64,000 nt of DNA. It comes from Aureimonas sp. ME7 (GTDB taxonomy: Bacteria; Pseudomonadota; Alphaproteobacteria; Rhizobiales; Rhizobiaceae). A model generated the notes under the pieces. It did not search any database. It was not told the DNA's origin and worked only from the letters and a program-made list of their open reading frames with translations. A program made the position numbers and the translations under genes. Every line of letters begins with the position of its first letter. Position 1 is the stretch's first letter. Below are positions 57,864 to 59,513 of the stretch, piece by piece. The stretch spans positions 62,001 through 126,000 of the forward strand of contig NZ_CAJCKW010000004.1 in NCBI RefSeq assembly GCF_903970965.1. The letters run 5' to 3'.

Positions 57864-58766
<903 letters not shown>

Positions 58767-58956
58767 GAACCCTCTTCGATTCGGCCGACCGCTGGAATCC
58801 TTCGGTCGCAACCGCCGGAAGCCGCTCAACCCTGATGCATGTCGGTTTTTTTAGCAATCGGCCACGCGACGGCCAAATCGGTGATCCATGAAATGAAGGT
58901 GGAAAAACTCCGACATATGCGATCTCGTGACCGGCGCAGAGGACGCTGGCCGCTTC

Positions 58957-58973
58957 TCTGGAATTGCTCTAAA
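58957..58973 (+). promoter_or_regulatory. Irr-type (ICE) box upstream of rirA
   Basis: TCTGGAATTGCTCTAAA matches the 17-bp Irr box pattern TTTAGAA-N3-TTCTAAA (as I recall it) at 11 of 14 arm positions. It ends 51 bases before the rirA ATG, in AT-rich promoter-like DNA (an AATTGC direct repeat at 58962 and 58975 overlaps it). Irr control of rirA links haem and Fe-S iron sensing in Hyphomicrobiales. Confidence 0.55.
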
Positions 58974-59024
58974 TAATTGCCACATGACGAGAATGGCGAA
59001 CGGCCTACCTTTGGGAGACGACCG

Positions 59025-59513
59025 ATGCGGCTGACCCGCCAGACGAACTATGCGATCCGCCTCCTGATGTATTGCGCAGCCAATCCCGATCGTCTCAGTC
59101 GGGTGGGGGAGGTCGCCGCCGCCTACAACGTGTCGGAACTGTTCCTGTTCAAGATTCTCCAGCCCCTGGTGGAGGCGGGCTTCGTCCAGACCGTACGCGG
59201 CCGCAACGGAGGCATCCGTCTGGCCCAACCGGCTGAAGCGATCACGCTGCGCGCCGTGGTGGAGGTGACGGAAGAGAGCTTCGCCATGGCGGAATGCTTC
59301 GAGACCGGTGCCGTCGATTGCCCGTTGATCGACAGCTGCGCCCTGAACGCCGCCTTGCGAGCGGCGCTCGATGCCTTTCTCGGCACGCTCGGCGGCTTCA
59401 CGATCGAAGGGCTGGTCTCGTCCAGCGGTTCGATCCGGCATCGTCTGGGGCTCGCCGACCCGGTTCCATCCTCGTTTGGCGCTCCGCCCGCGCTTGTCCC
59501 TCTGGCCGGCTGA
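59025..59513 (+). CDS. rirA: Iron-responsive Rrf2-family repressor RirA
   Basis: Represses iron uptake genes when its Fe-S cluster is loaded. The 162-residue protein opens MRLTRQTNYAIRLLMYCAAN, has the winged-helix block SELFLFKILQPLVEAG and the hinge VRGRNGGIRL, and carries the three cluster cysteines in AECFETGAVDCPLIDSCALN with the RirA spacing. GGGAGACGACC fixes the ATG at 59025. Its stop abuts the stop of the convergent glycosyltransferase within a 14-bp palindrome. An Irr-like box lies upstream. Confidence 0.92.
   Translation: MRLTRQTNYAIRLLMYCAANPDRLSRVGEVAAAYNVSELFLFKILQPLVEAGFVQTVRGRNGGIRLAQPAEAITLRAVVEVTEESFAMAECFETGAVDCPLIDSCALNAALRAALDAFLGTLGGFTIEGLVSSSGSIRHRLGLADPVPSSFGAPPALVPLAG

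Follow-up and report, generated by a model that had tools for sequence, protein, structure and literature searches.

Two published studies describe repression of rirA by Irr under low iron in Agrobacterium and its relatives (PMC7762939, PMC6386902), an observation that the citing papers credit, for A. tumefaciens, to Hibbing & Fuqua 2011. Another study reports a gel shift of the Brucella rirA promoter by Irr and describes, for Brucella melitensis, an ICE belonging to rirA (PMC10374146). As stated in PMC7762939, Irr acts as an activator or a repressor according to the location of the ICE. PMC6386902 further reports that rirA of wild-type S. fredii is higher, not lower, in iron-poor medium, that it rises with iron in a rirA mutant, and that this gene is autoregulated, yet that the fbpA-rirA intergenic region has no IRO box. 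In R. leguminosarum, RirA regulates irrA and itself (PMC6386902). The autoregulation and IRO boxes treated in that study, for R. leguminosarum, A. tumefaciens and S. fredii, concern the same promoter as the one considered here in Aureimonas.

We analysed this promoter in a stretch of 64,000 nucleotides from Aureimonas sp. ME7 (hereafter the window), which belongs to an assembly of 4.38 Mb; among the named loci listed, those closest to it by RirA come from Aureimonas species. The ICE consensus is an inverted repeat, TTTAGAA-N3-TTCTAAA; this operator consensus and a haem-responsive regulator of the Fur family are common to the Bradyrhizobium ICE/Irr regulon and to Aureimonas. With Agrobacterium tumefaciens and Brucella melitensis, Aureimonas shares the regulator, the target, an ICE-type site in the promoter and the expected sign of control at low iron, whereas the window box has an unusual base in its right arm and the Aureimonas case is a prediction from sequence. 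The link from Irr to rirA is not new in kind, having already been reported for Agrobacterium and Brucella; a limited literature search found no published Aureimonas work on iron and rirA.

The ICE-type box before rirA and its conservation

The two features on which the analysis centres are:

58957 to 58973, forward strand: putative Irr box (ICE), TCTGGAATTGCTCTAAA, in the rirA promoter, proposed from its ICE match, its conservation in genus and family and a matrix score of 22.9
59025 to 59513, forward strand: rirA coding sequence, 162 amino acids, Rrf2-family iron regulator (NF008886)

The rirA product matches the NCBIfam equivalog model for RirA (NF008886) over residues 1-144 with 232.8 bits for a cut-off of 193, which identifies it as RirA. 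The genome also encodes Irr (NF045678, 222.5 bits, cut-off 150), on whose presence the first-pass annotation had made its reading depend, together with two other Fur-family proteins, one probably Mur and the other a weaker match. A divergent ORF on the minus strand (57864-58829), branched-chain amino acid ABC permease-like by eye, shares the rirA intergenic region.

The position of TCTGGAATTGCTCTAAA, its agreement with the ICE pattern TTTAGAANNNTTCTAAA at 11 of 14 arm positions and the 51 bases between its end and the rirA ATG at 59025 were all confirmed as the first-pass annotation had given them. It is the sole ICE-type site with at most three mismatches in the window. Chance would supply 0.15 such matches per window, at least one match appeared in 14 of 100 shuffles, and the whole genome holds 27 ICE sites for 15 sites of the reversed control pattern; the ICE match in this single sequence is therefore only suggestive.

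Conservation within the genus is more informative. All 21 Aureimonas genomes, assigned to the genus on the basis of named loci, contain rirA as well as irr (the latter by protein search), and each has a box located 33-62 bp before the rirA start. The common form is TTGGAA-N3-TTCTAA with small changes, an inverted repeat near the consensus (11 or 12 of 14 arm positions), and the scores range from 17.6 to 27.0 with a matrix trained outside the genus. Since the box occurs in 21/21 genomes and, in each of them, none of 500 first-order Markov resamplings of the genome's own upstream region reached its score, this conservation is far beyond chance. The 17-mer, whose conservation before rirA in relatives was the other point on which the first-pass reading hung, is thus retained throughout the genus, not letter for letter: the window box has C at base 11, the first of the right arm, a position occupied by T in the 20 other genomes of the genus. 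A C at that base was also found in two other family genomes and in one of 80 named loci. An inverted repeat of this kind, upstream of an iron-related gene, conserved in relatives and borne by a genome that encodes Irr, has the attributes of an ICE.

We extended the comparison to 121 family genomes, with rirA found in 117 (E up to 1e-25) and irr in 116 (E up to 1e-18); four genomes with irr (G025, G034, G039 and G077) gave no hit for rirA at E <= 1e-25. Each genome was represented by its best rirA copy; a further copy in G052 and weaker paralogues were excluded. Using a matrix built from 91 family promoters (Aureimonas held out, the rest of the family not) and a cut-off of 11 chosen after the scores were known, a box was found within 300 bp before rirA in 102 of 112 irr-bearing Rhizobiaceae genomes and in none of the five irr-less ones (Fisher 1.8e-5, kinship ignored). 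At the same score, the controls gave 19/2720 for shuffled upstream regions (first-order Markov resamplings) and 3/136 for the stretch 300-200 bp upstream. All 80 named loci examined, of at least 497 confirmed, have a box scoring at least 15 within 200 bp, this set overlapping that of the family genomes; one of them, from Sinorhizobium meliloti 4H41, reads TTTGGAATTGTTCCAAA.

The absence of the box from the irr-less genomes is dependent on measure and threshold. The count is also 0/5 at matrix cut-offs of 9 and 15, it becomes 3/5 at a score of 5, and a plain count of at least 11 of 14 letters gives 93/112 irr-bearing versus 2/5 irr-less genomes (Fisher 0.045). These five genomes (G006, G044, G076, G093 and G111) all keep rirA. 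They are reduced (1.1-1.5 Mb) and A+T-rich (0.68-0.81), and their best sites were reached by at least 5.6% of resamplings; an irr-bearing genome of 1.5 Mb, G091, is also without the box. None of the five exceeded the cut-off of the Irr model, against 4/4 comparison genomes; three of them have Fur-family proteins below that cut-off, and in G076 and G093 nothing matched the Fur family at E <= 0.001. In the ten irr-bearing genomes without a box (G043, G118, G049, G083, G015, G091, G053, G109, G010 and G095), a displaced operon box was sought 1.3-1.6 kb upstream and none stood above the resamplings (lowest p 0.185).

Other ICE sites and RirA-type operators

Among the 27 ICE sites of the window's genome, 15 were checked for their neighbours, and nine of these lie at iron, haem or Fe-S genes. 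Five of the other six are inside ORFs and one precedes a DUF1289 gene. The genes concerned are:

G000:C3:71837-71902, two ICE sites: Dps-like ferritin gene (Pfam Ferritin above cut-off, Dps models below theirs)
One ICE site: efeU (331.9 bits, cut-off 255)
One ICE site: FhuE-like siderophore receptor (cut ORF, below cut-off; site inside the longest ORF reading)
One ICE site: sdhB (first 110 residues only, below cut-off)
One ICE site: NifS-like cysteine desulfurase (below the equivalog cut-off)
One ICE site: hemA, 5-aminolevulinate synthase (665.6 bits, cut-off 338.55)
One ICE site: ccmI (above cut-off)
One ICE site: FbpA-like iron-binding protein (best solved relative 1y9u, E 1.1e-127; site 218 bases from the start)

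The two boxes before the Dps-like ferritin gene have starts 49 bases apart. The fbpA-like gene has an IRO-like site as well as an ICE box upstream (G000:C3:175332-175516), possibly a two-regulator promoter.

IRO-like sites, the putative operators of RirA, are distributed differently. The pattern TGA-N9-TCA, used as an untrained check, occurs in 57 of 136 rirA upstream regions and in 203 of 2720 shuffled ones; the sites in rirA promoters have A-rich and T-rich flanks and cluster at distances of about 20, 32 and 82 bases upstream of the start of the ICE. A matrix built from 58 family rirA-promoter sites (again with the genus, but not the rest of the family, held out) located an IRO-like site at rirA in 70 of the 100 irr-bearing genomes that lie outside both Aureimonas and the near genera, against 5 of 31 inside this group (genus 5/21, near genera 0/10; Fisher 1.5e-7, kinship ignored), nearness being defined by RirA/Irr likeness and not by a species tree. 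The five genus members concerned (scores 7.9-18.2) form one group with 99/99 support in a RirA+Irr tree; many of its forks are weak and the rows of the near genera are half-filled, and it was used for this grouping only. At the window's rirA, the best IRO score within 200 bp is -9.8 and no TGA-N9-TCA occurs within 300 bp. Three of the irr-bearing genomes without an ICE before rirA, namely G049, G091 and G109, do have a scoring IRO-like site at this gene.

The flanked IRO pattern is matched exactly only once in the window's genome (G000:C1:512141-512165, score 19.9), 17 bases before irr, which thus has an IRO-type site. Genome-wide, this pattern gave nine sites, the eight others having one mismatch, versus two for the control. 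Four of the eight precede two TonB-dependent siderophore receptors, a siderophore-binding protein and fbpA; the neighbours of the remaining four were inspected and no clear iron gene was seen. An IRO-like site just before irr was found in 21/21 genus genomes (shuffled 5/1050) and in 4 of the 60 other family genomes whose irr leader was examined, out of 114 that bear irr (shuffled 18/1200). Its left half-site is imperfect in many genus members. An RNA element was considered for this leader block; by eye, the arms pair inconsistently across the genus, and a DNA operator is therefore preferred.

Core promoter, AATTGC repeat and rival explanations for the box

Four further elements lie in or around the box:

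58947 to 58952, forward strand: place of the candidate -35 of the relatives, where it starts with TT; the window has TGGCCG (from flank conservation)
58970 to 58975, forward strand: weak candidate -10, TAAATA, overlapping the right arm of the box (from flank conservation at box offsets +18/+19)
58962 to 58967, forward strand: AATTGC copy 1, within the box; lacks conservation and is probably due to chance
58975 to 58980, forward strand: second AATTGC copy, with none at this place in relatives; probably due to chance

Column conservation over 124 boxes, themselves preselected by ICE likeness, is highest on the two arms, where it reaches 2.07 bits. Weak additional signals at offsets -10/-9 (T in 67 and 71, respectively, of 124 family promoters) and +18/+19 would suit a -35 and a -10 separated by a spacer of 17 bases. 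TT is present at the candidate -35 in 20 of the 21 genus genomes, only the window having TG. A simple promoter scan preferred offsets 2, 13 and 11 and was ambiguous, so that it serves as no more than a hint; as every one of these offsets places the box over the core promoter, the scan favours repression by occlusion.

The first-pass annotation had also proposed that the AATTGC repeat might be the site of a second regulator. The repeat does exist, yet two copies near the box were found only in the window among 121 box-bearing promoters, and we rejected it as a second site on account of this lack of conservation. The first copy arises from the C at box base 11, where the 20 other genus genomes have T; from the sequences compared, the repeat is probably a product of chance.

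On a first rival explanation, the conserved block would be only the -35 and -10 of rirA and not an operator. The right arm, TCTAAA/T, is indeed -10-like, the weak conservation of TT at box -10/-9 and of T at +18 fits such elements, and the promoter scan likewise sets its hexamers over the box. The left arm, however, is conserved nearly like the right one, with about 1.6-2.1 bits at four positions; this arm conservation is partly by construction, owing to the preselection of the boxes, but the genus alignment, which is free of it, still shows GGAA and TCTAA conserved. Both arms moreover agree with an operator already described, and the five irr-less genomes in which rirA persists lack the box by matrix score. 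We thus regard a bare core promoter as very improbable. We give as little credence to the use of the box by some other dimeric regulator, a Mur/Fur-like or Rrf2 protein. Candidates do exist in the genome, in the form of the probable Mur and the third, weaker Fur-family match, but in three of the five irr-less genomes Fur-family proteins persist although the box is absent by matrix score, and the RirA operator, TGA-N9-TCA, differs from the box and occurs apart from it in many rirA promoters.

A further explanation concerns the window's species only, in which the box might be decaying and no longer bound. The right-arm T-to-C change and the missing TT at -10/-9 are unique to this genome among the 21. 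The window box nonetheless scores 22.9, higher than 62 of the 136 promoters and higher than four genus copies with an intact TTC (17.6-17.8), and the right-arm C recurs elsewhere in the family and among the named loci. Decay seems unlikely.

A putative cross-wired iron network in Aureimonas

The preferred reading is that the 17-mer is the Irr-binding ICE box of the rirA promoter and that rirA is repressed at low haem, to which we assign a probability of about 0.86, a value slightly reduced to allow for the dependence of the irr-less contrast on the measure used. The conservation of the box in the genus and in the irr-bearing family, together with the presence of irr and of other ICE sites in the genome, indicates that Irr very probably binds the box and represses rirA. 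The cross-wiring suggested in the first-pass annotation, in which the haem-responsive regulator controls the Fe-S-responsive one, is supported by the conservation of the box in the genus (21/21) and by the presence of irr, and remains a prediction from these data.

We infer Irr binding, the sign of repression and occlusion at rirA as follows. When haem is scarce, as at low iron, Irr would sit as a Fur-family dimer on both inverted arms and would block RNA polymerase, since the box probably overlies the core promoter. Switching rirA off at low iron would help to relieve the repression of iron uptake by RirA. When haem is plentiful, Irr would leave the DNA and rirA would be transcribed.

The placement of the IRO-like sites adds a second, more speculative layer. 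The common arrangement in other Rhizobiaceae has RirA and Irr sites both at rirA, whereas Aureimonas has the IRO-like site at irr. Likewise, in contrast to the autoregulation described for R. leguminosarum, A. tumefaciens and S. fredii, the window's rirA is without an IRO-like site and one is found before irr instead. The rarity of such sites at Aureimonas rirA and their occurrence at irr in 21/21 genomes predict mutual repression: Irr would repress rirA via the ICE, and RirA would repress irr via the IRO site in the irr leader. On this comparison of promoters, Irr and RirA of Aureimonas may repress each other in a double-negative loop with little direct self-control. That the RirA operator has effectively been relocated from rirA to irr, creating such a loop at the cost of direct self-repression in most of the genus, is a tentative proposal to which we give somewhat less than even odds. 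The regulation of irrA by RirA in R. leguminosarum means that the loop would not be new at the level of the network, and the autoregulation of S. fredii rirA despite its lack of an IRO box means that a missing IRO is no proof of missing self-control. The irr genes of other genera could also have RirA sites of a kind that our matrix misses. Any novelty would thus be limited to the operator arrangement in Aureimonas.

Over the 136 rirA promoters compared, about nine tenths of the sampled irr-bearing Rhizobiaceae retain the site of a haem-sensing regulator at the gene of an Fe-S-sensing regulator. The exchange of IRO sites in Aureimonas, if real, would illustrate the rewiring in nature of an iron network with two regulators between close relatives. 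If the double-negative loop is true, it could let Aureimonas switch sharply or bistably between iron-rich and iron-poor states, in place of graded control.
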